In this document: positions 43,002-62,038 of the stretch, in pieces | Layout: each line of letters opens with the position of its first letter | How positions within the stretch are numbered: position 1 is the first letter of the stretch | Assembly (NCBI GenBank): GCA_907163375.1 | Contig: CAJQUW010001797.1 | Coordinates: forward strand, 1 to 64,000 | Source of the DNA: Prostheceraeus crozeri | Lineage: Eukaryota; Platyhelminthes; Polycladida; Euryleptidae | DNA length: 64,000 bases | Direction of reading: 5' to 3' | Position numbers and translations under genes: made by a program | Notes under the pieces: model-generated | Told to the model about the DNA's origin: nothing | Databases searched by the model: none | Seen by the model: only the letters and a program-made list of their open reading frames with translations

Positions 43002-44340
43002 TCATTGAGTTCCAGTGTTGTAGATCGAAACTTTTGAATGGCTGATAAACACGTTCATCTTGATACAGGCATCTTCTCCAGAAGCAGGGCTTGGATTGTT
43101 GGGTTGCACTTGACGCAGAAGTTTGCCGTCCAATACTGCTGAGCACTGTTCTGAATGAATGTCTGATGTCCTTTTATATGCTCTCACTCCATTAACACTC
43201 CTGTGTCCTGTCCTTTCCATTATTAACTGCTCATCGACATTGGCTTCATAGAGTCGTGTAGCACAGGTTGCTCGTAAACTGTGATTTGTTATGTGATGAG
43301 AAATTCCTGCCTTTTCACTAATCCTCTTCATATATCCAGCCAACTTATTTCTAACCGATTGGTCGGTTTGTATACCACGTTGTGTTTGACAAATTACAGT
43401 TCTTTTTCGGTATTATATAAAATCGATTAGTATCAGCGGGTCGGACTTGGTTGAATTTCTCAAAGAATGCAACATGACATCGCGTTTTATTGTCATTTTC
43501 AAATTGTACAACTTCTTTTGCCTTATGCCTCATGTTACGTAGGCCACCAGAATTGTTTTTGGAGCACTTTTCAGTATACACGACACATTTCTTTTCATTT
43601 CCTATTTCCACTTTGAATTGGTCCATTGTTAACATGCTGTGCTCATCTCCACCTCGTAATGCAAAGTGAATACCATTCAAGTAGAAAAGAGTGTACAGCA
43701 GTTTTTCTGATGTCTCATTCCCCAAAGATTTCTCCCATAATTTCTTTTCCTCTTCAAAACTAATAACATCTGCGGATTTTCGTGGTAAGTTACAACCCAA
43801 TTTAACAGACATTTTCATTGCAGCATCCAAACATTCCTTCACATGCAAGAAACTGTTGTCATTAAAGAAATCGACTCGGTTTTTATTTGCAGATAGTGTA
43901 TTCTGAATTCCGGCTACAATTGAAACTAATGTAGCGCCTTGATATCGTTGTCCGTCGCTTCTTCTTGCTTCGTGAACAAAGCGTGCCATCACACTACAAA
44001 GTTTATTTTTGTTGTAAAAGTCTATTTCTATCTTTTGTTCCTCTAGCCAATCAGTCAAAATCTTGTAGGCCCATCTATTTCGCTTCAAGGTGTTTTTTGA
44101 CTTCCCTTCGTGATTCAAGATGTTGATCTCTTCTGTACTTATACAGTTTCCAAAGCGAGATGCTGATCCACAAGGAAGTTCTTCAGATCCAAGAGAAACA
44201 GTTTTTGTTTCATTATTTGCAGGGCCAGAAGAGGATCTTATACTTGCATGAATTTCCAGGCCACTGATCATTTCTCCAGGAAATAGACTAAAATCAATTG
44301 GATATGGCCAGTCATTCATATCATCACTCACATATGCCAT
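43002..44340 (-). pseudogene. Crypton-type tyrosine recombinase, frameshifted
   Basis: The N-terminal part (ATG at 44340 to stop near 43351) has an acidic leader, a SAM-like core-binding region (LKRNRWAYKILTDWLEE) and the first catalytic arginine in FALRGGDEH. The C-terminal part (43343-43002, another frame) has the rest of the active site: NHSLRATCATRL (HxxR), MERTGHRSVNGV (second His) and the tyrosine in RAYKRT. The two frames meet at the conserved RPIG point, with one extra base and a stop, so the gene is broken by a single-base indel or an assembly error. The pattern matches Crypton-derived recombinases related to the ZMYM/KCTD1/QRICH1 group. Confidence 0.82.
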
Positions 44341-44419
44341 GTTTTCCACTTAGTAGAAATGATGTCTGTAGTTTGAAATTAAAACACACGATCCTCAAGA
44401 CATAACTAGATTCATTTGA

Positions 44420-44454
44420 ATTTCCGGGATATATTTACAATACATCCCGGAAAT
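44420..44454. repeat. Palindrome, 11-bp arms, 13-bp spacer
   Basis: ATTTCCGGGAT and ATCCCGGAAAT are perfect inverted arms, 80 bp upstream of the recombinase start. The size resembles a tyrosine recombinase core site, but function is unproven. Confidence 0.7.
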
Positions 44455-44470
44455 ATCATGGTTTAATAGA

Positions 44471-44572
44471 AATATTGCATAGATTTCTGGGAGGTACCGT
44501 ATCAACTTAAATCCCTCGAGCCTTCGGCTCTCGGGATATAAAATCATACCTCCCAGAAATCTATGTAATATT
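44471..44572. repeat. Foldback with 26-bp arms and inner hairpin
   Basis: Arms 44471-44496 and 44547-44572 share AGATTTCTGGGAGGTA in inverted orientation, with one mismatch in 26 bp. Inside, 44511-44537 forms a second hairpin around CCTTCGG. Lies between the recombinase pseudogene and the Polinton. Confidence 0.85.
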
Positions 44573-44930
44573 TACTACTTACCAATTCATTCATTAATGG
44601 ATTCTCAAGCTGGAGTGACGGACGACGGTTCATGGTTGTCTGGTGCATTGAGAATTCAATGTGAAAATGGCGGGCATATAATGGTGCATTATATACCCTC
44701 CAATGCCGGGCTATAAAACGTAATGAAGATGTATTTAACATCAATTATAACAAATATACAAAAAGTAAGTCAATATACAAACAAGGTAGATCCAGAAAGT
44801 GCAGGTAAGTTATACAATTATCACGAAGGAAGAAAATGGAAGACTTGAGTCTATGCATTTTATTGTAATCCCTTATAAAAAGGATTATGCCGGTCTATAA
44901 TGAGTAGTGAAAACTGTGCCCTACTTGCCA
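44573..44930. other. Non-coding spacer
   Basis: Contains TATATA/TATAAAA words (44690-44720) that could belong to a promoter, but no gene can be assigned. No Polinton terminal repeat recognised. Confidence 0.35.
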
Positions 44931-45150
44931 CGGATAGGTACATGGATAGGTACATGTAAAGTTTAGTGTTATCAATAGGTACATGGATAGGTACATGTAA
45001 AGTTTAGTGTTGTCAATAGGAACATGGATAGGTACATGGATAGGTACATGTATACTTTAGTTATCGATAGGCACATGGATAGGTACATGTATAATTCAGT
45101 GTTATCAATAGGAACTTGTATGAGATCTGTTTTACTGGATAGGTACATGT
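44931..45150. repeat. Minisatellite of GGATAGGTACAT units
   Basis: About nine copies of (G)GATAGGTACATG, alternating with GTAAAGTTTAGTGTTATCA-type spacers, give a higher-order period of roughly 55-60 bp. Non-coding. Confidence 0.85.
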
Positions 45151-45341
45151 GTTTGGTACACTGTGTTTCGGAACGTCTATGATCGAACTTGTGTGGTTTG
45201 GTTCTGAGCACTTGGGTACGTACCGATAGACGTCCGTTGTTTGATTTTGAATGGGTTTGCTCAATTGCGACTATTGTGACTATTGCAACCATTGTAATCA
45301 AGATGACACATTGATTTTCCTTTTACGTAGACAAACTATGC

Positions 45342-45349: not shown

Positions 45350-45375
45350 TGAGATAGTTTTTGATAACATACATA

Positions 45376-45873
45376 ATGATGACTAGTATCCCAACGTCGT
45401 GGGTTGTCGCAAGAGACCTTGGATATTCGTTCAAAGCCATAGAAACTGTAACAAATCTCAGTGAAAATATCAACGCTGGTGATTTAGTTGATCGACTAAT
45501 GGATCTAGATGAGCATGCTATGAATCACAATTTGGATCGTAGGTGGATAGAGGATTTCTCCATGCTACACTGCAATGATAGTGAAATTAGGAGGATCAAA
45601 TTGGAACGATATGGAAAGAAGGAGACATCTGACAGTGTTTTAATAAAAAGTTCTCCCAATAAAAGTGACTTCAGAAGGAAATTAGAACAAGAGACATTTA
45701 AATTATTATGTGAACGGAGCTGCGTTAAATGTTTTAAACAGGAACGATCACTTCTCTTTTTGCCATGTTCTCATAGCGTTATGTGTTCTACATGTTATGT
45801 ACCCTTTGAAACTTCATCTTGTCCCCTTTGCGATGAAGAAATATCTTCAACAGTCACTGTATATCGTTCATGA
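45376..45873 (+). CDS. IAP-like UBA-RING protein without BIR domain
   Basis: 165 residues from the first in-frame ATG (45376; a second follows at once). Residues 8-50 match the UBA domain of inhibitor-of-apoptosis proteins (ARDLGYSF...DLVDRLMDLDEHA). Residues 116-152 form a C3HC4 RING with C116, C119, C131, H133, C137, C140, C149 and C152, and the protein ends TVTVYRS, the usual IAP RING tail. No BIR repeat is present. By family knowledge it would be a ubiquitin ligase binding ubiquitin through UBA; a role against host cell death is inference. First gene of the plus-strand series. Such genes occur in large DNA viruses; it is not part of the Polinton core set and was probably acquired from a host. 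Confidence 0.8.
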   Translation: MMTSIPTSWVVARDLGYSFKAIETVTNLSENINAGDLVDRLMDLDEHAMNHNLDRRWIEDFSMLHCNDSEIRRIKLERYGKKETSDSVLIKSSPNKSDFRRKLEQETFKLLCERSCVKCFKQERSLLFLPCSHSVMCSTCYVPFETSSCPLCDEEISSTVTVYRS

Positions 45874-47277: not shown

Positions 47278-48012
47278 ATGACTCAGAAAATGTATACAAT
47301 CAGAGAGGAAGGTGACGCTTTTGAGCAAGATCTCTTGAAGCTTCGTCCGACACGAAAGGTGCAAGGGATTGGAAATACGTTCTACTTTCAAACCTTGAAT
47401 TATGGTGATGATGGCTTTTATCTTCAAGTTCCATTCTTCCACAGTAATGGTATGTCTACATCAGGGTATAGCAATATGAGACAAATGCGAGTGACTTTTC
47501 CAAAATGGCAACAGGTGATTCTTAAAACTATTGACTCTTTCGCGAAAGAATGTGTTGAGCTGCCTGAAAGTGCTCCCACTCATTGGAGAAAGGCATTAGA
47601 GGAAGGAGTTGGTTATAAGGAATTGCCGGAATTCGATACACTGTTTTTAAAACTATCTGATCATTTTCAAGCATTCGATCTCTTTACAAACGCGATGGAA
47701 TGTGAGGATCTCAAACGGGGCCGCTATATGGGCTTAGTTCACGTTACCGGACTTTATATTGGCTCACATGGTTCGACTGGTAAAGTCGCATCTTTACAAA
47801 TGAAGGTTCTTCAACTAGTCTATGAACCACTACCAATTGATAAATGTTTAATTAACATTGATAAGACTGCTTCAAGTGATGGGAAGGAAGAGAGCAAAAA
47901 GCGAGGTCGGAAATCTAAAGATGGGAATCCTAAATTGAAGTTGAAGCGCCAAGATGCTGACTTGAAAACTTTCTATAATCCTAATTGTGATGAGGAAACA
48001 CAAATGTTTTAA
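47278..48012 (+). CDS. Unknown 244-residue Polinton protein
   Basis: Has its own promoter. The first 200 residues look like one globular mixed alpha/beta domain (FYFQTLNY, YLQVPFFHSNG, GRYMGLVHVTGLYIG, LQMKVLQLVYEPL). The last 40 are Lys/Arg-rich with an AT-hook-like KKRGRKSKDG. Position (between the small basic protein and the ATPase) and basic tail suggest DNA binding, but I do not recognise a named family. A separate TATA-type promoter suggests expression apart from the capsid genes. No breaks. Confidence 0.7.
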   Translation: MTQKMYTIREEGDAFEQDLLKLRPTRKVQGIGNTFYFQTLNYGDDGFYLQVPFFHSNGMSTSGYSNMRQMRVTFPKWQQVILKTIDSFAKECVELPESAPTHWRKALEEGVGYKELPEFDTLFLKLSDHFQAFDLFTNAMECEDLKRGRYMGLVHVTGLYIGSHGSTGKVASLQMKVLQLVYEPLPIDKCLINIDKTASSDGKEESKKRGRKSKDGNPKLKLKRQDADLKTFYNPNCDEETQMF

Positions 48013-48153: not shown

Positions 48154-48789
48154 ATGACAGATTTTCGTCTATTCACTGATCGCACAATGTGTGTCGCTGG
48201 ACCAAGTCAGTCCGGTAAAACTACATTTGTAACTGAATTGCTACAATATAGAAATGAAATGTTTAACAAGGAAATTAAGAGAGTCAAATGGTATTATGGA
48301 ATATTTCAACCACAACTACATTCTGCACTTCGCCAGAAAGGTTATGAGGTGAAGCAAGGGTTGCCATCAACTGAGGATATCAAAGCAGGTGACTTACTAG
48401 TATTAGATGATCTATTACGAGAAAGCAAATCTTCAAAGGATGTAACTGAAATGTTCATTCAAACTGCACATCATAGGGAAGCTTTTATTGTCTACATCAC
48501 CCAAAACATCTTCGATGGAGGGAAAGAGCAAAGAACTAGAAGTTTGAATACACATTATTTGGCAATATTTAAAAATCCAAGAGATAGCAGTCAGATACAT
48601 CATCTCAGTAGACAGATATTACCTCAACAACCTAAAGTACTTTCAAAAATATATGAAGATGTAACAAAGAAACCACATGGTTATCTATTTATTGATCTAA
48701 CCCAGGAATGTCCGGAACGACTTCGATTTCGAACAAATATCATACCTAATTCCGCTGAACCAATGACAGTTTTCTCGGTTCACAGTTAG
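48154..48789 (+). CDS. Genome-packaging ATPase (FtsK/HerA type)
   Basis: 211 residues. Walker A is AGPSQSGKTT (residues 15-24); Walker B is LLVLDDLL (81-88, D85/D86); a sensor-like VYITQN follows near 115. This is the A32-like packaging ATPase of Polintons, adintoviruses and virophages, which pumps DNA into the capsid. Normal length, intact, between the 244-residue protein and the conserved 200-residue protein. Confidence 0.9.
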   Translation: MTDFRLFTDRTMCVAGPSQSGKTTFVTELLQYRNEMFNKEIKRVKWYYGIFQPQLHSALRQKGYEVKQGLPSTEDIKAGDLLVLDDLLRESKSSKDVTEMFIQTAHHREAFIVYITQNIFDGGKEQRTRSLNTHYLAIFKNPRDSSQIHHLSRQILPQQPKVLSKIYEDVTKKPHGYLFIDLTQECPERLRFRTNIIPNSAEPMTVFSVHS

Positions 48790-48960
48790 TTTTAAGCAAT
48801 GTACTTTGTTGCCTTATTATTTTCAAACATGTCGTATTCAAAGATGGTAGTCATTCCTCAAGAGTAGTATGTACAATTGACTACATTACAAAGTGCACAG
48901 GAAGTCAAAAATATAGATCAACCTATTACGAATCAACTTAAGGAACTAACACAAAAGGAT

Positions 48961-49479
48961 ATGGAAATTCAGAAGATTAAGGATCCCTATCGACGAATGC
49001 AGTTAGCAGCTGAAAACATTGACGAGAGGCGACAGATTCGTGACAAGTTGCGACGATTTATAACCTTGTCAACACCTCGACCATATCGTGTGCGCGCTGA
49101 GCGATTATTTGACTTCATTGATCCACATGTGAAGTTCAATGAGAGAGGGGAGATAATAGATGAAACAACTGGTGATGTTATTAGAAATAGTCACATAGAT
49201 GACCTTCTACAATATGCTGTCAGAGATGTAAGGCGAAAACTAGGTGCACCACAAGGGTGGACATATTTTCAGAAAATTTTATCTGCTCAAAATGTACCTC
49301 ACAATATTATTGGAGGACCGACTGTGAATGAATTGGATAAGGGTCACTTACAAGATGGATCAAAGAGTAAAACACCCACGATGGCGGTCAAGCGAGAGCT
49401 TGCAGATCCCGATGATCTGCAACCAAAAAGAGCTACTAGGCGCTCAATGCGTGTTGCGAAGGAGTATAGTAAATATTAA
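48961..49479 (+). CDS. Conserved Polinton protein, start uncertain
   Basis: The frame is open from 48868 (after a stop at 48865), but its only in-frame ATG is at 48961 (codons MEIQKI); an earlier TTG (48877) would give 200 residues. An out-of-frame ATG at 48869 hints at a lost start or one-base indel. The core helical segment DDLLQYAVRDVRRK followed by GWTYFQKIL and NVPHNIIG matches a conserved protein seen in many invertebrate Polintons (pattern recognition only). The C-terminal 40 residues are basic. Function unknown; its position between ATPase and integrase is usual. Confidence 0.6.
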   Translation: MEIQKIKDPYRRMQLAAENIDERRQIRDKLRRFITLSTPRPYRVRAERLFDFIDPHVKFNERGEIIDETTGDVIRNSHIDDLLQYAVRDVRRKLGAPQGWTYFQKILSAQNVPHNIIGGPTVNELDKGHLQDGSKSKTPTMAVKRELADPDDLQPKRATRRSMRVAKEYSKY

Positions 49480-49513: not shown

Positions 49514-49840
49514 ATGTCGTTACAAAAATTTTGCTGTTGTTTGAAATCTGCGCTCGAAGGCAAAGGAGAAGAGGGCATAGAGGTTGATATCAATTGTGTT
49601 AGCAGTTGCTGTGCGAGTAATACGCGTGCAAATCAGAACAAAGACGATGAGTACAGCAGTGAAACTCAGAAAGATTTATTACGACTTAAATCATCCCGCA
49701 AAATTCAGTCGTCCGGAGGTTCTAGCTCGTGCAGCAGGTGTGGGAATAGAGAAAGTCAAGAAGTGGTTGAGGAGTCAACCGACTTACACTCTTCACAAAA
49801 ATGCGAGAAAGCGGTTTCCAACAAGAAAATATGTTGTTAA
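49514..49840 (+). CDS. Possible small cysteine-rich ORF
   Basis: 108 codons with an ATG at 49514. The first 35 residues contain CCC, CVSSCC and an acidic segment, reminiscent of acylated cysteine-rich N termini. Beyond 49647 it overlaps the integrase in another frame and is Ser-rich. It may be real (overprinted) or chance; the only support is the ATG and the intergenic position of its 5' part. Confidence 0.3.
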   Translation: MSLQKFCCCLKSALEGKGEEGIEVDINCVSSCCASNTRANQNKDDEYSSETQKDLLRLKSSRKIQSSGGSSSCSRCGNRESQEVVEESTDLHSSQKCEKAVSNKKICC

Positions 49841-50735
49841 CAATATAGATAGTCAATGGCAAGCGGACTTGGCTGACATGCAACAGATATCACAGTACAA
49901 TGATGGCTATAAATACATCTTAACCGTAATAGATATTTTATCTCGCTATGCTTGGGCACGTGCGCTGAAATCTAAACGAGGACCAGAAGTTGAAGCGGCT
50001 TTTCAGAGCATTTTCGATGAGGGGCGTGTTCCGCAAAGAATACAGACCGATCAAGGGAAGGAATTCGAAAACTCTCATGTTCGAAGTCTCCTTAAAAGTC
50101 ATAATGTGGAATTGTTTAGTGTCAAAAGTGCTTATAAAGCTGCCATGGTTGAGAGGTTCAATCGCACACTGAAGACAAAAATATGGCGCTATTTCACTGC
50201 AAAAAATACACATGTTTGGGTAGGTGAGCTGCAGAAATTTGTTAAGAATTACAATGAAAGCTACCATCGAATCATTAAGATGAAACCAGTTGATGTTACC
50301 CCAGATAATGCGATGGATGTATGGCTTCGATTGTATGATAAGAAAGCGAAAAACATTTCCAATGAAAAGAAAATTAATGTTGGTGATAGAGTTCGGATTT
50401 CAAAGGTTAAGTCTACATTTGAGAAGGGGTATCTACCTAATTGGACTGAAGAAGAGTTTTTTGTGGATGAAGTAAATACAAAATTTAGACCCACCATGTA
50501 TAAATTAATAGATTACCATGGCAATCCAATTGAAGGAAAATTTTACTCTTATGAATTGCAAGTAGTAGACAGAAGTGAAGAGGTGTATATGATTGATAAA
50601 ATAATTAGGAGGAAAGGTCATGGCAATCAAAGAAAATATCTAGTTAAATGGAAAGGATATCCTGATTCATTCAATAGATGGATAACGCATCAGGATCTAC
50701 AAAATGTGGAGATGGGAGACACTCGTAACTTTTAA
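49647..50735 (+). CDS. Retroviral-type integrase with chromodomain
   Basis: 363 residues from the ATG at 49647, preferred because the conserved start KLRKIYYDLNHPA follows. An N-terminal helical region ends in TYTLHKNARKRF. The rve core has D74 (WQADLAD), D135 (IQTDQG) and E169 (AAMVERFNRT). A C-terminal chromodomain (about 305-355) has YLVKWKGYPDSFNRW. It catalyses insertion of the element with a 6-bp duplication; the chromodomain probably directs it to modified chromatin. All catalytic residues are present. It follows the 200-residue protein and precedes the minor capsid gene. Confidence 0.93.
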   Translation: MSTAVKLRKIYYDLNHPAKFSRPEVLARAAGVGIEKVKKWLRSQPTYTLHKNARKRFPTRKYVVNNIDSQWQADLADMQQISQYNDGYKYILTVIDILSRYAWARALKSKRGPEVEAAFQSIFDEGRVPQRIQTDQGKEFENSHVRSLLKSHNVELFSVKSAYKAAMVERFNRTLKTKIWRYFTAKNTHVWVGELQKFVKNYNESYHRIIKMKPVDVTPDNAMDVWLRLYDKKAKNISNEKKINVGDRVRISKVKSTFEKGYLPNWTEEEFFVDEVNTKFRPTMYKLIDYHGNPIEGKFYSYELQVVDRSEEVYMIDKIIRRKGHGNQRKYLVKWKGYPDSFNRWITHQDLQNVEMGDTRNF

Positions 50736-50775
50736 GCTAATATAGCATGTGACTTCTTCCATATATGACTTTAAC

Positions 50776-52353
50776 ATGTCTACTAACTTCAATATCATTC
50801 TTCCAAGCAATAGCAACCCCAAGATATTCCCAAGTAACAAACCATCTCTATACTCTGTTGAATTCGCTAATCCAATTACTCTGCATGGACCCCATGAAGT
50901 TGCTCTAACTGAAATTACTTATTACAACGATATCAGTTTGCTAAAGAACAACTATTTTGAATTACATAAAGAAGTGCGAGAGAAGGATGATTGCTTTCGC
51001 ATATTTCAAAATAGTCTACATGGTACATGGGCTTTTCATCATCTAACTTTACATCCTTTTTCAACATCTTTACCATCTGTTCAAAACATGATTAAAATTC
51101 AAAAGGCATTTGCAACGTCAACTTTTAATTCTAAGGTTCCCACAATGAGCTTGCAAGATACAGAAAAGGAAATCGGTAGAATGTTTGAACGAATAAATGA
51201 TCTCTTCAAGCTGACTTTGAATAAATTCTACAAACCAGTCATAAAGGGGTCAACAAAATTGATGAAGGAAGGGAAGCATGTTCTTCTTGTATTAGGTAAG
51301 GATTTGAGTCATACTTTTGGGTATTCCAGAACAACTTTCTCATCAAGGTATTGGTACAATGGACGTGGGTGGAATTCGGAGAGGAAAGTCACTGATTTTA
51401 AATGTAGAATTGTGCCATTGTATGCATTACAAAAAAGGAGCATCCGAGTAAAAAATAAATTTGAGGTCATTAGAAGTGTTGAAGACTTTGCAAGAAAGTT
51501 TCAAGGATCAGTGCCAGAAACGTTAATGACTTGTGAATATAAGAAAGAGAAAGTAACTTTATTTACTGTTGAAACGGAGGCAGAATTTATTGTTTTTACT
51601 AAAAAGACACCATTGGAAAAGTCTGAGTCCGCTGTTATTGAATTTGGATCTGAAATGATTGGGATGTTTAAGGGCCTTGAAAGCGCACCTTGGTTGACAG
51701 AATTAAATGATACATTCAAGGTTCAATTGTCCTCTTCTAAACTCAAAGCATCAACAAATGCTTCATGGGATATCCACGTATACAGCGAAGACATATCGGG
51801 TGATGAATTGTCTACTTCCAGTGAACTTGTAAAAAGAGTTAATTTGAACATTGAAAGCTTGAAAACGCCATCTGAATTGTGTACAAAGTTAAATGAGTTT
51901 GGTGTAGATTACCTTGATGCAGATGAATATCACTTTTCTTATGACCCACATAAGAAACGCATGATTCTAAAGGTAGGGAAGAACTCTCTTATCAAGCTGG
52001 ATAGCGTGTTAACGACCACATTGGGATTCTCAAAATCAACTATTTATGAAGGTACATCAATAGGCGATACAGCCCCATCACTAGAGCGTGATATAAGTAA
52101 CTTATACGTCTATTGTAACATTATTGAATATACAAGGGTTGGCGACATTGAGGCCCCACTTCTGCGCACATTTCCTCTCTCATCCGTAAGGAAGCAACTA
52201 ATCAATCGAGAATTTTTTAACACAATGTATCTACCAATCAGCCGAAATTTCATCAATAGAATTGACATATCAATTCATGATGATGCAGGAGAAGTAGTAC
52301 CGTTCTGTGGTGGTGTTACTGTTTTGACCCTACATATTAGGTCACGAGAATAA
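50776..52353 (+). CDS. Minor capsid / penton-like protein
   Basis: 525 residues from the ATG at 50776. The N terminus (NFNIILPSNSNPKIFPSN, then EVALTEITYY) and C terminus (LYVYCNIIEY, then PLLRTFP, ending VTVLTLHIRSRE) match a family found in most animal Polintons and usually taken as the minor capsid or penton component. The middle is longer and more variable. It is predicted to sit at capsid vertices. GCTAATA lies 40 bases upstream (50736), a word shared with two other gene starts. The structural role rests on family knowledge, not on a motif visible here. Confidence 0.72.
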   Translation: MSTNFNIILPSNSNPKIFPSNKPSLYSVEFANPITLHGPHEVALTEITYYNDISLLKNNYFELHKEVREKDDCFRIFQNSLHGTWAFHHLTLHPFSTSLPSVQNMIKIQKAFATSTFNSKVPTMSLQDTEKEIGRMFERINDLFKLTLNKFYKPVIKGSTKLMKEGKHVLLVLGKDLSHTFGYSRTTFSSRYWYNGRGWNSERKVTDFKCRIVPLYALQKRSIRVKNKFEVIRSVEDFARKFQGSVPETLMTCEYKKEKVTLFTVETEAEFIVFTKKTPLEKSESAVIEFGSEMIGMFKGLESAPWLTELNDTFKVQLSSSKLKASTNASWDIHVYSEDISGDELSTSSELVKRVNLNIESLKTPSELCTKLNEFGVDYLDADEYHFSYDPHKKRMILKVGKNSLIKLDSVLTTTLGFSKSTIYEGTSIGDTAPSLERDISNLYVYCNIIEYTRVGDIEAPLLRTFPLSSVRKQLINREFFNTMYLPISRNFINRIDISIHDDAGEVVPFCGGVTVLTLHIRSRE

Positions 52354-52396: not shown

Positions 52397-52879
52397 ATGA
52401 CAGGCATTTACAGTAGACCATCATATCAGAGCGGTTATCCCGTGTTTGTTGGAGGTAGACGACAAGTTGGAGGAGGCATATTTGGTGCACTAAGACGTAT
52501 GGTTCTTCCAACACTCAAAAAGTATGGCGTACCAATCATGAAGCGTGTTGGAAGCAGGGCTTTAGATTTTGGTGCAAATGTTGCAGCTGATGCGCTTCAA
52601 GGTGAGGATATCGGTGAATCTATGAAAATGCGCGCGCAGCAATCTGCCATAGACGCATTAGATGATTTAACAAAGACGAGACGTACAGTTCGGAAGAAGC
52701 GTAGGAAGTCAAGACAAGTTGGATCAGGCCGAGTTACTAAGCAAAGACGCAGGAAAAGTAAAATGCCGACTAGAGCAGCACGTTCTAAATCTAGACGTCG
52801 AGTGAAAACAAGAAAGCGCAAACGAAATTCCACAGCTACTAGAAACAAGTCAAAACGAAGGAAGACAACATATTTGTAG
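52397..52879 (+). CDS. Basic virion core protein, adenovirus pX/pVII-like
   Basis: 160 residues. The first half has Gly-rich GGRRQVGGGIFGALRRMV, then a helix DFGANVAADALQGEDI..SMKMRAQQSA, the signature of the Polinton core protein compared with adenovirus core proteins. Residues 90-160 are about half Arg/Lys with RRKSK and KRKR clusters, fitting DNA condensation in the capsid. GGIFG resembles an adenain cleavage context, so maturation by the protease at 54170 is plausible. Directly followed by the major capsid gene (10-base gap). Confidence 0.75.
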   Translation: MTGIYSRPSYQSGYPVFVGGRRQVGGGIFGALRRMVLPTLKKYGVPIMKRVGSRALDFGANVAADALQGEDIGESMKMRAQQSAIDALDDLTKTRRTVRKKRRKSRQVGSGRVTKQRRRKSKMPTRAARSKSRRRVKTRKRKRNSTATRNKSKRRKTTYL

Positions 52880-52889
52880 AGCTAATACG

Positions 52890-54173
52890 ATGCAGAGTAT
52901 CAATTCGGCTTTGTGTTTCTTCGATTCTCCCCCTCATCAGACAGACATCATCTCCTCAACAATTGTAGACATAGTCCCCACAACAAATATCGATGGTAAC
53001 CAGCAGCCTATTCAGTTTGATATACCTGCCAATCCTCAAGATTATATTGACTGTCAATCCATTGATTTAGAGTTGTGTATACAAATTAAGAAGACTGATG
53101 GTACAAATATCGATTCATCCAAGGATAAAGTGGGGTTAGCAAATCTTCCTATTGCCAGTCTGTTCTCAGATGTGTATCTAATATTGAATGACAAACAGAT
53201 TGAAGGAGGGGATCGAGCATATCCATATGGAGCATATATACATACAATGACTCAATTTCAAAAGCAAGCTAAACAGTCACACTTGCAAGTTTCTGGGTGG
53301 TATGATGATCAGCAAGGGAAATTTGATGATGTCTCAAATACAGGGTTGAAAAGACGAATGGATTTAACAGCGGATTCAAAGGAATTATACTTGAAAGGAC
53401 CCGTCTATCTTGATTTCCTTCGTCAATCTAGATATCTGCTATCACAGGTTAAAATGCAAATAAAATTTATTCGTGCAAATCCTGAGTTCGCGTTAATGGC
53501 TTTTGGAGCTACAAACTATCAAGTCAACATAAGTAATGCCGTGCTCAATGTAAGGCGAGTAACAATGAACCCGTCAGTCATCAACGAGCATGCGACAGGA
53601 TTGAGGAAAAACAATGCAATATATCCAGTTAATCACAGTGTGTTGACAAACTTCACAATTGGTGCGGGATCATCCTCACATGCCTACCCAAATCTTTTTC
53701 CCACTGCAATGCCAAAGGCGGTGTATATCACATTTGTGGAAAATGAGGCATTCATTGGTGCTTTTGAAAAGAATCCATTCAATTTCCAACACTTTAATGT
53801 TAGCAAACTAGCACTCTATCAGGATGGGAAATTTGTATCTTGCAAAGCATATGAGCCTAATTTCAAAGATGGTAAATTCGCACGTGAATATGGTTCTATT
53901 TTCACCGCCCTCAACATGTTTAATACAGACGATTCAAATGGAATTACAATGGATATGTACAAGAATGGCTACTTCTTCATTATGTACAACCTCACAGCAG
54001 ATGCAGATCTAGGTGGTGAAAGCGTAGGAGTTACAAAGCCTGGAAATCTACGACTGGAGGTATCATTTGAGTCACCTTTGAAGAAAACAATTACTTGTCT
54101 CATTTATGCTATCTATGATAGCAAAGTTGAGATAACAAGAATGAGAGACGTGACTGTCAGCTATCAGAGATGA
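52890..54173 (+). CDS. Major capsid protein, double jelly-roll
   Basis: 427 residues. Matches the Polinton major capsid family (C. elegans F54H12.2-like sequences): FDSPPHQTDI near the N terminus, a PIQFDIPANPQDYID strand, LPIASLFSDVYLILND, YPYGAYIHTM and a C-terminal half with KLALYQDGK, GYFFIMYNLTAD and LRLEVSFESPL. These are strands of two stacked jelly-roll domains in related structures. Forms trimeric hexons. Starts at an ATG in GAGCTAATACGATG and overlaps the protease by 4 bases (ATGA). No damage. Confidence 0.87.
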   Translation: MQSINSALCFFDSPPHQTDIISSTIVDIVPTTNIDGNQQPIQFDIPANPQDYIDCQSIDLELCIQIKKTDGTNIDSSKDKVGLANLPIASLFSDVYLILNDKQIEGGDRAYPYGAYIHTMTQFQKQAKQSHLQVSGWYDDQQGKFDDVSNTGLKRRMDLTADSKELYLKGPVYLDFLRQSRYLLSQVKMQIKFIRANPEFALMAFGATNYQVNISNAVLNVRRVTMNPSVINEHATGLRKNNAIYPVNHSVLTNFTIGAGSSSHAYPNLFPTAMPKAVYITFVENEAFIGAFEKNPFNFQHFNVSKLALYQDGKFVSCKAYEPNFKDGKFAREYGSIFTALNMFNTDDSNGITMDMYKNGYFFIMYNLTADADLGGESVGVTKPGNLRLEVSFESPLKKTITCLIYAIYDSKVEITRMRDVTVSYQR

Positions 54174-54634
54174 GTAACTTAAGCAACATAGAAATCTTGA
54201 GGAAAATGAGGAAAGCTCATCCCTACTCCAAGACAATATTTCTCAATGTCTTTTCTAGAGATAATTTACCTGATTCAATTCCTTTCTATCCTTGTTCGCT
54301 TATCATCAATACGGATACCAACAATCTTCCCGGAAAACATTGGATTGCTGTATACATCAATCGTTATAAAGTTGCCGAATATTTTGACTCTCTTAATCAA
54401 CCTCGTTTACATGATATCGCATTATGGATGAACAGGTTTTCCTGGACTGTTAGGAAAGTGACATCGTTCCCACTTCAAAGTAATACATCTCTAATGTGCG
54501 GTGGCTATGTACTCTATTTTGTCAACGAGAGACCATTGAAAAATAACTGTAAAAGTGCTTTAGAACTATTTTCAAAAAACTGTGATAAAAATGATGTAAT
54601 TCTTACTAAATATGTTGAAACAGTTTTGAAATAA
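54170..54634 (+). CDS. Maturation cysteine protease, adenain-like
   Basis: 154 residues, starting inside the stop of the capsid gene (ATGA overlap). Catalytic order is His-Asp-Gln-Cys: H57 (GKHWIAVYI), D73 (AEYFDSL), Q103 (FPLQSN) and C110 (LMCGGYVLYF), as in Ulp1/adenain (C5/C48) proteases. It should process core and minor capsid proteins during virion maturation. Last gene of the plus-strand series; an AATAAA signal overlaps the stop (GAAATAAAG). Confidence 0.9.
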   Translation: MSNLSNIEILRKMRKAHPYSKTIFLNVFSRDNLPDSIPFYPCSLIINTDTNNLPGKHWIAVYINRYKVAEYFDSLNQPRLHDIALWMNRFSWTVRKVTSFPLQSNTSLMCGGYVLYFVNERPLKNNCKSALELFSKNCDKNDVILTKYVETVLK

Positions 54635-54694: not shown

Positions 54695-54780
54695 ACAAAA
54701 ACATGCTCATATTTCATTATCTATTCACATATATACAAAAACATGTTCACATTTCATTATCTATCCACATATATACAAAA
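54695..54780. repeat. 40-bp tandem pair between convergent genes
   Basis: ACATGCTCATATTTCATTAT and ACATGTTCACATTTCATTAT start two adjacent 40-bp units (54701 and 54741) in the short gap between the protease and the TBP-like gene. May shape both 3' ends. Confidence 0.8.
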
Positions 54781-54781
54781 T

Positions 54782-55351
54782 CTACAATTTGGTTTTCATG
54801 AAACATTTTTTCAAATCACATATGATGGGAGGCACATCACTTATGTCTTTAATGCCGGTTATCACAATCTTTCCATTATGGAACACATGAACATGATATG
54901 GATGCCAGTTAGTCAATTGAGCTGCTGGAAATAACTCCACTTCATAAGTTAGATTATGTGATGATGTAACTTTACGGAAATCATAGTGATAGTGTAATTC
55001 ACATAACACGGTCATTGTCTTCACTTTCCAATCAGATAATGAATCACCAAGTAAATGTTCCAAAGTTAAGTGTAAATATGAGAGATCACCCTCCATGACC
55101 CTTCCAATACATTGGATTGTTCCATTTGGAAAGAATAGGATAGTGAGAGATCTATCCTTCCTCTGAATCCTCCATGTTAACATTGAGGGTCTTCCAAGAT
55201 GTAAGCTCGTTGTCGGCTTCAATTTGCGTTTTATCAGTAACCATTGTTTTCGGTTGGGTATATTCCTCTCGATCTCTTGTAGATTGAGTTTTGACTTTGC
55301 TTTTGTAGTTAACATCCGATTTACAACTTCCAACCGTTTGATGTCCTCCAT
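54782..55351 (-). CDS. TATA-binding-protein-like (two-repeat) protein
   Basis: 189 residues from the ATG at 55351. Two halves line up with the two TBP repeats. Repeat 1: KLNLQEIERNIPN (TBP: KLDLKTIALRARN), then RPSMLTWRIQRKDRSLTILF (AVIMRIREPRTTALIF) and NGTIQCIG (SGKMVCTG). Repeat 2: YEVELFPAA (YEPELFPGL), then HVHVFHNGKIVITGIKD (LLIFVSGKVVLTGAKV). Spacing between the NG/SGK blocks is close to TBP. The intercalating phenylalanines look partly changed, so DNA contact may differ. Its first 200 bases overlap the upstream gene in another frame. Inference: an element-encoded factor for its own TATA promoters. The fold call needs a profile or structure search. Confidence 0.75.
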   Translation of the reverse strand: MEDIKRLEVVNRMLTTKAKSKLNLQEIERNIPNRKQWLLIKRKLKPTTSLHLGRPSMLTWRIQRKDRSLTILFFPNGTIQCIGRVMEGDLSYLHLTLEHLLGDSLSDWKVKTMTVLCELHYHYDFRKVTSSHNLTYEVELFPAAQLTNWHPYHVHVFHNGKIVITGIKDISDVPPIICDLKKCFMKTKL

Positions 55352-55712
55352 CTTTAATGAATGACGTTATCTGTGGTAGTATCTCCCTTGTAAAGGTTTC
55401 CCATGTGACGTCACTGAAACGAAAAAATCGATATTCAACATCTTCACGTTTTGGTGAACAGACGTATAGTTTGACTGATGAATCACACTTTATCCATACC
55501 TTGTCATCGAGAGGAATCTTGATCCGAGTCTTATGGTTGTCAATGAGATCCACAAAGTCTTTCAGTGAAGGCAATGAGTCAATACTAATGCAAACGCCAC
55601 GATGTTTTCGATCACTATTTGCTATTGAATGACGAAATGCTATTCTTTTAGAATTTGTTATGTGAACGTTTTGAACGTCACTAAGTTTCCATGTTCTAAT
55701 GTAATGAGGCAT
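55152..55712 (-). CDS. Unknown protein overlapping the TBP-like gene
   Basis: 186 residues from the ATG at 55712; the frame is open slightly upstream but has no ATG. Residues 1-115 look globular (WKLSDVQNVHITNS, GVCISIDSLPSLKDFVDLI, VWIKCDSSVKLYVCS, FFRFSDVTWETFTREIL). The rest is charged and low-complexity, and that disordered tail is the part overlapping the TBP-like gene by 200 bases, typical of overprinting. No family recognised. It may be expressed from one transcript with the TBP-like gene. Confidence 0.6.
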   Translation of the reverse strand: MPHYIRTWKLSDVQNVHITNSKRIAFRHSIANSDRKHRGVCISIDSLPSLKDFVDLIDNHKTRIKIPLDDKVWIKCDSSVKLYVCSPKREDVEYRFFRFSDVTWETFTREILPQITSFIKDGGHQTVGSCKSDVNYKSKVKTQSTRDREEYTQPKTMVTDKTQIEADNELTSWKTLNVNMEDSEEG

Positions 55713-55773
55713 GTTCCGAAAGCTATGTTTCAAATTTAGGTTTAATGTTTGCCTAAAGTTTGTTATTTTATTA

Positions 55774-55991: not shown

Positions 55992-58900
55992 TCATTCTAC
56001 ATCACCTGTGACAGGAAGGCATCTCCTTCTCTTCGACGGTGGGGGAAGACCTAGGCTATAGTGTCCATATGGTAATGATAAATTTTTATCCAGCCAACAG
56101 CGCTTATCCTCCCAAAGTGAAAGACCTCGCTTCCTAAATGATTTTGTGCTAACTATGTGATTTTTTGAATTTATAATTGTCATATCTTCAGTTGTATCAT
56201 TCTCACTATAATAGACACTCCTATAGTCATCATGTTTCAATTTTTTAACTGCTGCTCTCTGAATTCCTTTTGCACGTTTGATGCTATGATTCGTAGAGTC
56301 TAGATATTTCATGGAATACATTTTCGGTTTTAGTAGGATCATTTCCTCAAGCAACTTTCCAGCAAACTCATCCTTAAAACAATCTAATCTAGCTTTGTTT
56401 GTAGTTGAGTATAGTCGGTGATGACTGTCATAGTTTGAAGAGTCAAACTTTTCACCGAAGTATAGAAGTATATCTTCCAGACGGACAGATGGTGATGTGT
56501 ATAAACATAGGAAGAAACTGTCGGTATCACCTCCACAAAGCCGCGTTCTATTTATCAGTGGACACCCTTTTAGATCATTGTAATATAATTGATACATTTC
56601 CAACTTACTATAGTCAAGTACTGCTTGACCAACATATATTAATTTATTTAAAACTATTGAAGGTTTGTACATTTCCATACCAACCAGATCTTCATCAAAT
56701 ATTTTGTGTTGAACATAGAGAGGATGATTTGACAATTTCAGTAGTTGTTTCTCATTGTTGACTAGTTTAAATTTTTTCCTTCTCCTTACATTTTCCATTG
56801 TTTTACCATATAAAGAATTATTTTTCAATTTGTAGAATGACTTTTCGAAGTCAGTGTTTGATTGAGCCCTCTTTTGAGAGTTCATATCAATGTATGTTTT
56901 TAACCAAGGCTTTTGTGTGAATTTTATGCCACTATGAATCTTCTTGATTCTCATGCCCATGGTCAAGTAAAATTTTAAAATTGAGTAGTGGACTACATAA
57001 TTTTCCCTATCAAATTGATGGAGCAGAAGTTTCTTGATAGAAGAAAAATGTGTATTTGGTCTTACTTTTTCATATAGATTTTTCATATAGTGTGAAAACA
57101 TTCTCTTTTCAATCATCTGCATTTCTGGAGCTAATGGGAAATCGGCAGTGTCATCATGAATGGCTGCAGGATACTCTAAATCTAAATCAAAAATGTAGCC
57201 GATTTCACCATCATCATCTATATTTTGAACATTTTCTTCATTTAAAAAATTATCTAATTCACTTTCATTCAACCATTTGAAATTTGAGTGGGGTAGATTC
57301 CTACTGAGTGAAGAACCGTAAAGGTTATTAACATCTAAGTAGGTCAAATGTCGACTTTCATGTATATTATTTCCTAATTCTTCAATGCGTGCACGCGCTC
57401 GGTGAATGTTGGTGAAAGTCATACCCCCTCTAATTCCTCGTTCAAATAGATTGTACATATTTTCATCTTGTATGTAGTGTGGGGGATCATTGGAAGAGAA
57501 ATTTAGTGCTGAGGTAAAGCTAAGATGTGGGAGACTGACAAAATGTACAGGGTCGACTTCATCCTCACGTTGACTCAATGCTCTAAACACTTCAAATATG
57601 TCTGCCAACAATAAAACATCTAACTTCAGATATGCCAGCATGTAATCACCAAATGTGCTACAATTAAATTCAATCCACGCCTTGTTAGCGTGTTCATATT
57701 CACTATCGGAACAGTGCTCACGAGTAAGATCATTATAGAATTCAAATTGTGGTGGTAGACAGTCTTCCGTCAACGTGTTTAAGTTTTTGAAGTATGAATA
57801 TGGAAACACTCCCTTCTGATATAAAACATTATCACTTAATTGTGGAAATTCTACCCTTAATGTCTCTACATGCTCATACGTTTGCAAACCCTTGGCTAAT
57901 TCACTCAAGGATGCACTTAGAAATTGATATGAGTCTAAGAATTTTAGTTTAAAGTATACTGTCTTCCCTTTGTATTCATTTACAGGGACACTGGCGGATA
58001 AAGTTATATATTTTTCAGCAGTTGCTGCTACAACATCTAATTTCCAAGACTTCATTCTTCCAATCGCTTTATAGCAAACGATGTGGCTATCATAATTTTT
58101 AAAATTGTGGAAAAATATGGGGAGCTCCCGTCTGTTAAGTCTTAACCGGAGATTGCATTTCCTACATAATGTTTGCCTATATCGTCCGGTGATATGATCA
58201 TGATCACGAACTTTTATGACTTCATCGCTGAATTTTGATTTACATTTGTTGCAACATTCTGCATTCTCATGGCGTGCTTTTTCATCCGCTGACAGTGTCA
58301 TTGGCTGCCTAGTTGTTGCACATTGGTTGTCATATAAGTCTTGGGCTACAGTTTCTAAGTGGTGCAAGAAACCAATAATGTAATTTTCACCTTCAAAGAG
58401 GTAATACTTGTTTTCAAATTTTGATTGAAGGGCATTATGCCAGACATGATAAGCTCCAATGGCCGCAGGTTTATGTATTTTATTATCAATGTAGCACTCT
58501 ATATCTGCATAAATTACTAAAGGAGGACTTAGTTGATATTCCATGCTACTTGTTAGTACTTTTAGATCTGTCGGCATTTTTTCTATTTGTGCTTTTCCTC
58601 GAATGCAAAACTGGAAATGTCGTTCTAGTGTTGTCTTATATGTGAATGACTGAGTGCATCTTTCGCAGAAGTATTTATGTCTTTTTAAAGTTCTCCTATA
58701 CAATCTTGACAGCTTTGGAATTCCACAATAGTGTGCTGCTCCATTGTTTAGAATTAGCAAAATATTAACCGTTTGCCTACCAGTAAAGTTACTATTGTAA
58801 CGAACACCTTTGAGTCCATTTTCATAAAAGTGAATGTTAATTTTAATATCATTATTTTTCTCAAATTTTGGAATATCTTTGATTGATACTGGTGTGGAAA

Positions 58901-59849
58901 TGCCTTCCATATTTAGCTCAGATGTCCACTCACTATATGATTTTACTTCATTCCTTGAATAAGGTACTTCATTATAATGCAATATTGATAAAACTGCATA
59001 TAGGAAGCAATCATTTGCATTTGAATTAACATTAATGACAGCTTTAGAGTTTTTTAACTTCTTTGGTAGAGGAAATGATTGTCCACCTGACAGTATTGGA
59101 CTTGTTATTACATTGAACTCTATATTTTGTACATCATCTATAATCCAATTGCTACCCTTTTTTGTGAAGGCTTCAATATGATTTATTAGACTATTTAGAT
59201 GATCCTGAAACCAAGCATCATAGTCATAAATATAGTTTGAGGATGATGAGGTAAAGTGTGCGAGAAAAGTTTCTTCTTCTTGAGGATTAGAACGGACATA
59301 ACGAATTTGTGCAATCAGACGACCGCGCAATTGATAGTTCCTTAGTAAGTCAGACACTAAATTCCCTAACATGGAACGCATGCTTTCTAAAAATGATGTT
59401 ATGTCCACAGTAGGTGTTGTTGGCGTGATATCATACACACGTGCATGGCCATTGAGTGCGCTTTCACTGAGACTAACAGTTCCATAGTTATTATGCATAT
59501 TCATCTCACTATTTGTGTTATGTACATTCATATGCTGTCGAAATCTACTTATAGAGTTATACGTTTTGCCACACCGAGAGCAGTATTGCATAAAGTTTTG
59601 TATGTTAGTTGAAGCGCTGGTTGTTGGCTTAGAAGTAGATCTATTTTGATTATTTGAATTTGACTCTGTTATGCTATCATTCGGTTTATTATTGCATACA
59701 AGTTTATGCCTCTTAAGATTATCCATCCTATTCGTCTTATATGGACACTTGCTACATTGATACGTTTTTCCTAACTTACAAAATTTTTCATGTCGTTGCA
59801 AATTGCCTATGAGAGTGAACACTTTTCCACACTTGGTACAGACAACCAT
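55992..59849 (-). CDS. polB: Protein-primed family B DNA polymerase with extra domains
   Basis: 1285 residues. N terminus: C2H2-type fingers at about 4-24, 32-52 and 90-110. Residues 270-385 hold NDCFLYAVLSILH (C281) and AHYCGI (H373), a cysteine-protease-like pair. A further finger lies at 395-415 (CERC...H...C). 3'-5' exonuclease: YADIEC (D449, E451), FHNFKNYDSHI (D587) and YLKLDVLLLAD (D744). An HNH/endonuclease VII-like insert lies at 533-566 (CNKC, RDHDHITG, CRKCN). Polymerase: YLDVNNLYGSS (D839), KLKNNSLYGKTMEN near 1010 and GGDTDS (1106-1111). Later KRAKG. Replicates the element by protein priming. All catalytic motifs intact. Promoter at 59880-59928. Confidence 0.94.
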   Translation of the reverse strand: MVVCTKCGKVFTLIGNLQRHEKFCKLGKTYQCSKCPYKTNRMDNLKRHKLVCNNKPNDSITESNSNNQNRSTSKPTTSASTNIQNFMQYCSRCGKTYNSISRFRQHMNVHNTNSEMNMHNNYGTVSLSESALNGHARVYDITPTTPTVDITSFLESMRSMLGNLVSDLLRNYQLRGRLIAQIRYVRSNPQEEETFLAHFTSSSSNYIYDYDAWFQDHLNSLINHIEAFTKKGSNWIIDDVQNIEFNVITSPILSGGQSFPLPKKLKNSKAVINVNSNANDCFLYAVLSILHYNEVPYSRNEVKSYSEWTSELNMEGISTPVSIKDIPKFEKNNDIKINIHFYENGLKGVRYNSNFTGRQTVNILLILNNGAAHYCGIPKLSRLYRRTLKRHKYFCERCTQSFTYKTTLERHFQFCIRGKAQIEKMPTDLKVLTSSMEYQLSPPLVIYADIECYIDNKIHKPAAIGAYHVWHNALQSKFENKYYLFEGENYIIGFLHHLETVAQDLYDNQCATTRQPMTLSADEKARHENAECCNKCKSKFSDEVIKVRDHDHITGRYRQTLCRKCNLRLRLNRRELPIFFHNFKNYDSHIVCYKAIGRMKSWKLDVVAATAEKYITLSASVPVNEYKGKTVYFKLKFLDSYQFLSASLSELAKGLQTYEHVETLRVEFPQLSDNVLYQKGVFPYSYFKNLNTLTEDCLPPQFEFYNDLTREHCSDSEYEHANKAWIEFNCSTFGDYMLAYLKLDVLLLADIFEVFRALSQREDEVDPVHFVSLPHLSFTSALNFSSNDPPHYIQDENMYNLFERGIRGGMTFTNIHRARARIEELGNNIHESRHLTYLDVNNLYGSSLSRNLPHSNFKWLNESELDNFLNEENVQNIDDDGEIGYIFDLDLEYPAAIHDDTADFPLAPEMQMIEKRMFSHYMKNLYEKVRPNTHFSSIKKLLLHQFDRENYVVHYSILKFYLTMGMRIKKIHSGIKFTQKPWLKTYIDMNSQKRAQSNTDFEKSFYKLKNNSLYGKTMENVRRRKKFKLVNNEKQLLKLSNHPLYVQHKIFDEDLVGMEMYKPSIVLNKLIYVGQAVLDYSKLEMYQLYYNDLKGCPLINRTRLCGGDTDSFFLCLYTSPSVRLEDILLYFGEKFDSSNYDSHHRLYSTTNKARLDCFKDEFAGKLLEEMILLKPKMYSMKYLDSTNHSIKRAKGIQRAAVKKLKHDDYRSVYYSENDTTEDMTIINSKNHIVSTKSFRKRGLSLWEDKRCWLDKNLSLPYGHYSLGLPPPSKRRRCLPVTGDVE

Positions 59850-60024: not shown

Positions 60025-62038
60025 TTACAGTCTGACACATTTAACAATACCACTATGGTAGAGTTTTAGGTGACTGCAGCTGTCACTACAGCCACCCAAA
60101 TCGTCCATCCTCGTAAGGCGCACTCTTCTGATGCCATTTTGGGAGCATTCCAGGTGCACAAGCGTTTCTTTTTTATGCTGTTGGCTGGTGGTAACTTGGG
60201 AGGCCAACAGGAGGTTTGATTGAGTAATATTTCTTAGAGACTCAATCAAACCTCTATTGTCCTCCTCCAACTTAGCCTCGCGGGCCTCAGCCTCCTTTAG
60301 GCGCTCTTGGCAAGGACGGAGTTGCACCTCAACGTCTTGTACCTCTTCTGCTGTCGCGTCGAGATCCACATCATACTGCCGGACAGGGAGAGCAGCTGGA
60401 GGTGCGGGCGCAGCAGCGTGAGGGGAAGGATCTGCGGCTGGGATCGGACAGGAAGGAGCTGCGGCTGGGATCGGAGAAGAAGGAGCTGCGGCTGGGATCG
60501 AAGAGGAAGGAGCCAGTGTCATCATCGGCGATAATGGAAGGCGCACACTCCAGCTCGGAGAAGCCCGGATGTGGCTGAACGAGACTTCCTCCTGAGATGC
60601 ACACATCGCGGAGTCCTGTAATCGAAAGAAACAATTGTTTATCATCTATTTAGCATTTTACCATTGATGAGATACAAAAGTGAATTTCTCTTACCTCCGG
60701 CTGGATTGTGACCTTCTGATCGGTTCCAACCTCCGTCTCACGGGGCAACGAGTCATTCTAAAAGATAAATCAATCTATTACAAACAAAAAACATATTTTA
60801 ATAGAAAATTCTGTACTCATGCAGTTGACCAACTTTGATACTTACATTTGTAACAGGATCATCATCCTCATCGGAAGAAGATGTCGGGGAAGAAGTCGCT
60901 GACGACGTTTCCTCATCAGATGAAGTCGCTGATGAGGTTTCATCGTCCTCTGATGAGGACTCCCGAATAGGATACGGCTTTTCCTCATTCTCTTCCACCG
61001 ATGTACTGGTCGCTGGCGTCGAAAGGAAACTTCGATGCTTCCTGAGGGACAGCGATCGCGCAACCTGCAGAGAAAAATAATATAACATGTTCGCAACTCA
61101 TTGAGAAGCATACATGTTCTTGGAAATACTTCATGCATTGAGAAATATTATTGACAAATAACTAAACAATGACACTTACGGGACTAGGAAGACACATCTT
61201 CTCCGGTATACTGTTCACACCTGTAAACAGCTGAAGAAAAGAACATATTCAATTTCGCATAAAGAGCTAATGAATAACTTTAATACTTACATTTCTCAAG
61301 CATTCAGCCGCTTTCTCCTCTTCAAAACTGATACAATTCTGTTGAGGCAACTCACTCTGAAATGTTGTGACAATGTTGAAATACTTTTTACATGATAGAA
61401 TAATTAATGGAGTAAATGTATTCTCACATTTTTAGTGACGATCTTTTTCTGAATTAAGACCTTGGTCTTCTTAGGAGGAGGCATCTCATCATTATCCTGA
61501 AATGATTAAACGATATATGTTTTTATGTATAATGGACCAATAATTAATTTATTCGGATTTAAGAAGCTATCCTTTGAAGGTTTTATGTATGATTGGCAGA
61601 ACTCACCTCAAAATCGCTTAAGGTGTCATCGATGAACTGTCGTGACTTGGGGGCTTTCTTTGGGGCTCGGGACTTGATAGGTTTCTTTATTGCTGTAGGC
61701 TCATCAACCTGTGAAAGGACACCTTCCATCGGCCTCTCCTTTTGAAATAACCGCTCCAACCTCCTCTTTTCAGCCTTTGAGGTGAGGTTGATTCCCTTCC
61801 TCCCATTTTGTTGAGCACATGGTGTATGTTTCTCAATGAATGCCTTAGAGGCTTCGGTATTAACCTTTTCAGTACTCCGTTTATATGACTTGCAGGTTAG
61901 GCAGTACAGATACGTGCATTCACTTTTGAAGATACAGTTCTTGTGGCCGCTCTTATTAGCATGTCGAACGGGTATTTTGCACGTTTCACAGAAATGAAAA
62001 ATTAGGCGCTGTCGTGCAAGACTCTCTTGTCGGACCAT
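60025..62038 (-). CDS. Seven-coding-exon gene, unknown 496-residue product
   Basis: Exons: 62038-61607, 61496-61428, 61356-61291, 61230-61180, 61064-60846, 60757-60695 and 60615-60025 (stop). Every intron is GT-AG with donors GTGAGT, GTGAGA, GTAAGT (three) and GTAAGA, 60-115 bp long, and every exon is a multiple of three, so all introns are phase 0. The product has a cysteine-rich N terminus (CETCKIPVRHANKSGHKNC, CTYLYCLTCKSY), a basic segment, a Ser/Asp/Glu-rich exon 5, an Ala/Pro repeat (SSPIPAAAPS) and a coiled coil (CQERLKEAEAREAKLEEDN). No family recognised; perhaps nuclear. Either a host gene beside the Polinton or a captured one. Confidence 0.75.

Follow-up and report, generated by a model that had tools for sequence, protein, structure and literature searches.

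A Strongly Diverged TATA-Binding Protein Encoded by Polintons of the Flatworm Prostheceraeus crozeri

A TBP Gene in a Polinton

We analyzed a window of 64,000 nucleotides (positions 1 to 64,000 of contig CAJQUW010001797.1) from the polyclad flatworm Prostheceraeus crozeri, in which the minus strand of a Polinton/Maverick element encodes a protein of 189 amino acids (aa) that, judged from its sequence, is a bona fide, strongly diverged TATA-binding protein (TBP) of an animal Polinton group.

54782..55351, minus strand: TBP-like gene, 189 aa, two TBP lobes (Pfam PF00352, E = 5.6e-13)

The open reading frame (ORF) occupies exactly this interval, running from ATG to stop, and its product matches the TBP family of Pfam in two stretches with 49 bits, against a curated cut-off of 22.9. 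A PDB sequence search matched solved TBP structures with an E-value of 7.5e-5 when the window protein was used by itself and of 2.4e-9 with a 17-sequence profile. When a profile of 21 family members was aligned by hhalign with yeast and three archaeal TBPs, the probability was 99.3% over 168 columns, colinear across both lobes and with about 21% identity to the cellular TBPs. The two Pfam stretches and the colinear alignment together indicate two tandem homologous lobes within the 189 aa.

The first-pass annotation had claimed, by eye, a minus-strand gene of 189 residues with both TBP repeats; its coordinates are exact, the four motifs that it quoted are present in order, and the profile search that it had recommended finds the TBP family. 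Its proposal that this TBP homologue is Polinton-encoded is backed by the profiles, by both lobes, by the structure of the element and by the presence of such a gene in two further Polinton lineages of the flatworm, as described below. Three other explanations of the ORF were rejected: a chance match, because the profile scores are far above chance; a host gene flanking the element, because eight loci selected by their TBP align with the window element; and a pseudogene. Most copies selected independently of TBP carry the full stop-free frame, and the gene is under purifying selection outside its overlap with ORF2.

Residues Kept and Changed

The TBP family is expected to carry four DNA-intercalating phenylalanines, of which three are present in this protein. 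Residues were counted in an alignment of 121 family proteins, including the window protein, with gaps excluded and with yeast TBP numbering as placed by our analysis. F190, F207 and P191 are kept in 121/121 rows and F116 in 113/113. The invariance of the ELFPA-type positions is overstated, since shared 5-residue words with the query set were required of every candidate. L189 is also kept, as is the first-lobe Asn (N69, 77/77). By contrast, the first intercalating Phe of the N lobe, F99, is replaced by Pro in 92/93 rows, including the window protein, which lowers the claim of canonical TATA binding, although not that of TBP ancestry. The acidic pair of the C lobe is retained, with E186 in 118/121 rows and an acidic residue at position 188 in all 121, and reads Glu-x-Glu in the window protein when set side by side with the host TBP. 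These two positions contact TFIIB in TBP (PMC7221094).

In the N lobe, most of the basic residues are lost. K127, K133, K138 and K145, which we take as proxies for the N-lobe basic cluster that binds TFIIA, TAF1, Mot1 and Brf1, correspond to V, S, T and D in the window protein, with R98 kept; the conserved basic cluster of canonical eukaryotic TBP orthologues is thus largely lost from it. Across the family, K138 has become Glu in 74/114 rows and K133 in 68/113, and K127 is also changed. In TBP, the basic cluster of the N lobe serves TFIIA, TAF1, Mot1 and Brf factors (PMC7221094).

The Polinton TBP therefore resembles eukaryotic and archaeal TBPs (PF00352) in its two lobes, its three intercalating phenylalanines and the acidic TFIIB contacts of its C lobe, whereas it differs from them in its low identity, in the Pro at F99, in most of the N-lobe basic positions, in reading FPA for the cellular FPG, and in forming a separate clade.

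Relatives and Phylogeny

A protein database search with the window TBP alone returned 16 relatives among 36 candidates, and an alignment-based search returned 193 relatives at E ≤ 1 among 2483 candidates, the best 120 of the 193 being aligned with the window protein. Most of the closest database relatives start at an internal Met (MLTWR or MTILFF). The N-terminal part, which is complete in P0002, P0025 and P0028 and mostly present in P0026, corresponds in the alignment to the opening strand and helix of TBP lobe 1, with the Asn of that lobe. Two family members, P0046 and P0105, are named TATA-box binding protein in the metagenome database. Scans of IMG/VR with TBP family, ORF2 (the neighbor of TBP, below), capsid and polymerase queries returned no relative, nor did phage records.

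Within the same animal genome (2.05 Gb), a yeast TBP query returned at least 150 rows: two host TBP exons (L038 and L040, on C9306), one TBPL1-like exon (L039, on C3829) and 147 further places, with 23–26% identity, ORFs mostly of about 234 aa, and one stop in 7/147. The host TBP and TBPL1-like exons indicate an animal host. The four of these places that were read (L041, L042, L043 and C471) belong to two separate Polinton lineages, L041/L042 and L043/C471, both distant from the window element and both with a TBP-like gene; the search for homologues in other Polintons that the first-pass annotation had advised thus succeeded within this one genome. The TBP of another lineage matches PF00352 at 4.6e-20 with a full first repeat. 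Identity between the C471 and window elements is 54% for the integrase, 52% for the ATPase, 43% for the probable capsid protein, 53% for the polymerase, 33% for the protease and 32% for TBP. The C471 element (L044:161-9736) has several penton-like paralogues, two ORF2 paralogues, and a polymerase region interrupted by other sequence.

Two maximum-likelihood trees, in line with the phylogeny suggested by the first-pass annotation, set the Polinton-type rows (30 and 26) against TBP from yeast, human or the host, TBPL1, archaeal TBPs and some IMG/VR TBPs whose hosts are unknown. The Polinton-type rows form one group with support of 100/99, a clade that stands apart from TBPL1, from the TBP of the host and from the archaeal proteins. 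Within this clade, the three lineages found in the flatworm lie dispersed. The branch that separates it is very long, and the root and the donor are therefore not readable from the trees. TBP recurs among the Polintons of this genome, in at least three lineages.

The Neighbors of TBP

Two genes adjoin TBP in the window element.

54170..54634, plus strand: probable Ulp1/adenain-type protease (PRO), facing TBP tail-to-tail (Peptidase_C48 14.4 bits, below cut-off; 33% identity to the C471 protease, E = 7e-23)
55152..55733, minus strand: ORF2, conserved protein without assigned role, upstream of TBP, first ATG at 55712 (7 homologues)

The tail-to-tail arrangement of a TBP-like gene and a protease-like gene is found again in L041, L042 and C471 (the protease of L041/L042 being recognized by eye); no protease is among the listed ORFs of L043. 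Between PRO and TBP, at 54701-54780, lie two near-identical copies of a 40-nt unit, and since the BLAST segments of two other element copies break and overlap there, the length of this repeat may vary.

The last 200 nt of ORF2 overlap the start of TBP in a different frame. In the C471 element, an ORF2 homologue beside TBP overlaps the TBP start by about 329 nt in the same frame relation (frame arithmetic by hand), and the two ORF2 homologues of that element are weak (E = 1e-6 and 2e-4). ORF2 has no significant Pfam or PDB match. A by-eye resemblance to PC4-like coactivators found no support, as hhalign gave a probability of 0.8% over 29 columns against one PC4 sequence. ORF2 may be a partner of the element TBP.

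Copy Number and Selection

A 33-mer taken from the TBP gene is found 884 times in the genome without mismatch, 486 times on one strand and 398 on the other, whereas its reversed control is found 0 times. The TBP protein search found at least 150 places, the 150 listed being all identical and stop-free, and the protease search at least 150, of which 86 are common to the TBP list (union 214). In eight loci selected by their TBP, the aligned segments have 98.0–99.5% identity to the window; seven of the loci align with the window element over their full 3.4–3.6 kb and the remaining one over all but a short junction.

Because places selected by TBP are biased towards identity, the selection test was repeated on 30 copies chosen for an identical protease, with TBP not used for the choice; distinct variants were counted against the window copy, with related copies included. 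The TBP frame is full-length, stop-free and free of indels in 27 of the 30, and among the other three, one aligned over 566/567 nt, one over a portion of the gene, and one had an indel. Outside the ORF2 overlap, TBP has 9 nonsynonymous and 15 synonymous variants (expected N/S 2.48, ratio 0.24, P = 0.0009), and over its entire length 18 and 17 (ratio 0.40, P = 0.008). For ORF2 outside the overlap the counts are 19 and 10 (ratio 0.51, P = 0.11). The TBP gene outside the ORF2 overlap is under purifying selection.

The Host Element

The element is a Polinton/Maverick of 20,707 bp, with its left end at 44903 and its right end at contig position 65609, beyond the window. No terminal inverted-repeat pair is seen inside the 64-kb window because the right end lies past 64000, and the ends were resolved through other copies. 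The tips read AGTAGT, an (AGT)2 motif. A 6-bp target duplication is present in 4/4 other copies with both ends read (C2610, C7695, C7489 and C5707); a fifth copy, C4631, is bounded on one side by the end of its contig, which places it outside this count. The window copy has no target duplication, since the sequence past its right end is an inverted copy of its left flank. AG-tipped terminal inverted repeats, 6-bp target duplications and a retroviral-type integrase with a chromodomain identify the element as a Polinton. The capsid, integrase, ATPase and protease block is on the plus strand, and TBP, ORF2 and the polymerase are on the minus strand.

44903..45284, plus strand: left terminal inverted repeat, tip AGTAGTGAAAACTG (382 nt, 99.7% identical to the right end)
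45361..45873, plus strand: RING-finger protein, cargo (zf-C3HC4_3, 1.5e-10)
47278..48012, plus strand: conserved protein without assigned role (25% identity to C471 homologue, E = 4e-10)
48154..48789, plus strand: probable packaging-type ATPase (AAA_14 6.6e-5, below cut-off; 52% identity to C471 homologue)
48877..49479, plus strand: conserved protein without assigned role (38% identity to C471 homologue)
49584..50735, plus strand: retrovirus-type integrase with chromodomain (rve 3.4e-13, Chromo 8.2e-9)
50749..52353, plus strand: probable penton/minor capsid protein, role inferred (C471 homologues)
52397..52879, plus strand: Arg/Lys-rich protein, probable core/minor capsid component, role inferred (34% identity to C471 homologue)
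52890..54173, plus strand: probable major capsid protein, 427 aa (43% identity to C471 homologue)
55992..59849, minus strand: probable protein-primed DNA polymerase B, 1285 aa (53% identity to C471 homologue over 614 aa)

For the polymerase, ATPase, protease and capsid proteins, the layout and the C471 homologues fit a Polinton, Pfam and PDB matches are sub-threshold or absent, and the assigned identities are provisional. The product of 52890..54173 has no Pfam or PDB match, and we take it to be the probable major capsid protein from the layout; that of 55992..59849 has zf-C2H2 and Endonuclease_7 as its sole Pfam matches above cut-off and is presumably the polymerase, given its DTDS motif and the layout. 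Tandem GGTACATGGATA-like units lie within the terminal repeat (44903-45284), and the RING-finger gene at the left element end (45361-45873) resembles by eye the C-terminal RING of IAP proteins.

As for the surroundings, 43912-44902 of the left flank reappears inverted past the right end of the element with 99.6% identity (L037:1711-2701), which is either an assembly fold-back or a real inverted duplication, and 40510-39384 recurs at a colinear place 5 kb on (L046:1-1127; the intervening stretch was unread). Just outside the element, tyrosine-recombinase-type ORFs at 43002-44349 (DUF3504 7e-23, QRICH1 2e-10, Phage_integrase 1e-12) are likely another mobile element. Broken ORFs at 39190-41135 look by eye like a hAT-type transposase, with no significant Pfam match in the two scanned. 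At 30001-32000, strand bias towards purines is extreme (GC skew 0.77, AT skew 0.85), with a long purine-rich tract creating overlapping long ORFs.

Possible Functions of the Element TBP

The most likely function, which we consider probable from the pattern of residues, is that of an element-specific TBP driving transcription of the element via host TFIIB. In this model, whose basis is that the acidic pair is kept while much of the N-lobe cluster is lost, the protein would sit on element promoters during an expression or replication phase, kink DNA as TBP does by means of its three kept intercalating phenylalanines, and recruit host TFIIB, and hence RNA polymerase II (Pol II), through the C-lobe stirrup YExELFP. 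TFIIB and Pol II would be taken from the host, because no TFIIB or RNA polymerase domain was recognized among the 19 element ORFs scanned (small ORFs fell outside the scan). Since most of the N-lobe residues used by TFIIA, TAF1, Mot1/BTAF1 and Brf1 are lost, the factor should also escape host TBP repressors and eviction. The self-directed transcription proposed in the first-pass annotation would fit the purifying selection and the retention of residues that face DNA and TFIIB.

The promoters themselves give a divided answer. The first-pass annotation had seen several strong TATA promoters, and in 6/16 element ORFs (RING, three left-end genes, the polymerase and the ORF at 61583) TATAWA does lie at most 110 nt ahead of the first ATG. 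Random intervals of the element would give 1.7 such ORFs (P = 0.0046) and base-composition shuffles 3.3 (P = 0.088, not significant), which makes the claim weaker. The TATA enrichment in the element is modest. No TATAWA lies within 110 nt before TBP or ORF2, and a simple k-mer count over the element upstream regions found no shared promoter motif past TATATAA-like words.

Besides the shuffles and the inflated invariance of ELFPA-type positions, several observations weigh against an element-specific promoter factor working through host TFIIB. TATAWA is absent within 110 nt upstream throughout the ATPase-to-protease block. The N-lobe loss is uneven, with R98 kept in 92/93 rows, Arg or Lys at position 145 in 35/110, and Arg at 145 in L043/L044. 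At the second-lobe Asn that contacts DNA, the window protein has Thr (Thr or Ser in its subgroup, Asn in 88/117 rows overall). Pfam misses even the element polymerase, and a diverged TFIIB could therefore go unseen. Finally, the selection counts take in related copies, and within the 200-nt overlap the TBP frame has 8 nonsynonymous and 2 synonymous variants, with no visible constraint.

Alternatively, the protein might be a TBP decoy, which would bind TFIIB of the host, or other factors, while leaving promoters alone, and would dampen transcription or defense in the host rather than drive genes of the element. Such a role would suit the TFIIB-facing glutamates, which are among the best-kept positions, and the loss of one intercalating Phe and the second-lobe Asn in the window protein; however, a decoy would not need the two lobes and three DNA-facing phenylalanines kept family-wide, and much of the N-lobe surface bound by host regulators is lost, making this role rather unlikely. 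It is also unlikely, to a similar degree or slightly more so, that the TBP fold bends DNA at the element ends as a replication or packaging protein instead of acting as a transcription factor, an idea favored by the position of the window-type gene, which shares its strand with the neighboring ORF2 and PolB, and by the bacterial TBP-lobe folds that act outside transcription (RNase HIII, rnlA; PMC7221094).

The lack of TATAWA upstream of the structural block would instead be expected of a herpesvirus-like late-gene factor, which would recognize a non-TATA element of that block together with element partners and not host TFIIB. There is a precedent in beta- and gamma-herpesviruses (PMC4893493), and ORF2, a conserved neighbor with a conserved overlap, could be such a partner; yet the TFIIB contacts are conserved in the Polinton family and the k-mer count revealed no common late motif, and we regard this model as improbable. 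A functionless passenger recently captured from host TBP or TBPL1, for which nothing was found beyond family membership, is hardly credible given the 100/99 split from both host proteins, the full stop-free frame in 27/30 protease-selected copies, and purifying selection.

An element-specific TBP acting via host TFIIB could also be part of something larger, which we put forward only tentatively: a large animal Polinton group might share a conserved module of TBP and an overlapping partner, ORF2, that would recruit host TFIIB and Pol II directly while remaining invisible to TFIIA, TFIID, NC2 and Mot1, and would thus form a private promoter system on a borrowed polymerase.

Comparison with Known Systems

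The element TBP resembles the TBP-like proteins of giant viruses and other dsDNA viruses in being encoded by a virus-like element and in its diverged N lobe; in those viral TBPs the N-lobe signature is not conserved, and the divergence is said to evade host regulators (PMC7221094). Their TFIIB acidic positions vary, with about 40% conservation at C.L3.2, and almost all TBP-bearing dsDNA viruses, poxviruses excepted, encode a TFIIB-like protein (PMC7221094). The Polinton family, unlike them, keeps E186 nearly throughout, and no TFIIB was recognized among the scanned element ORFs. Another parallel is with BcRF1, ORF24 and UL87 of beta- and gamma-herpesviruses, viral TBP-like factors for Pol II transcription, which have about 10% identity to TBP, act at TATT boxes and are tabled with five more late-expression viral genes (PMC4893493), whereas the TBP match of the Polinton protein is clear from sequence.

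TBP has been reported in 59% of mirusvirus genomes (PMC10132985) and sporadically in viral elements of Cymbomonas (PMC10675990), which the element described here resembles, at the level of description, as a eukaryotic DNA virus-type element with TBP. With vertebrate Mavericks/Polintons the window element shares terminal inverted repeats, (AGT)2 ends, 6-bp duplications, an integrase, and probable genes for the ATPase, protease, capsid protein and PolB; by contrast, the eight core genes of the vertebrate elements include no named TBP, and pz and pw are of unknown function (PMC8097293). The terms TATA, TBP and transcription have zero occurrences in the text of PMC4642659. We found no description of a Polinton TBP in the searchable literature, a provisional result as some key reviews and papers fall outside its coverage.

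To our knowledge, how Polintons are transcribed is an open question. A TBP present in three lineages of one genome and in about a hundred database relatives offers a concrete factor for that transcription, and suggests that promoter recognition is supplied by the elements themselves and the remaining machinery by the host. With its kept TFIIB surface and its altered, regulated N lobe, a combination unlike that of the viral TBPs (PMC7221094), it may serve as a natural probe of the surfaces essential for initiation. If a private promoter system does exist, it may help explain how a Polinton reaches hundreds of copies per genome.
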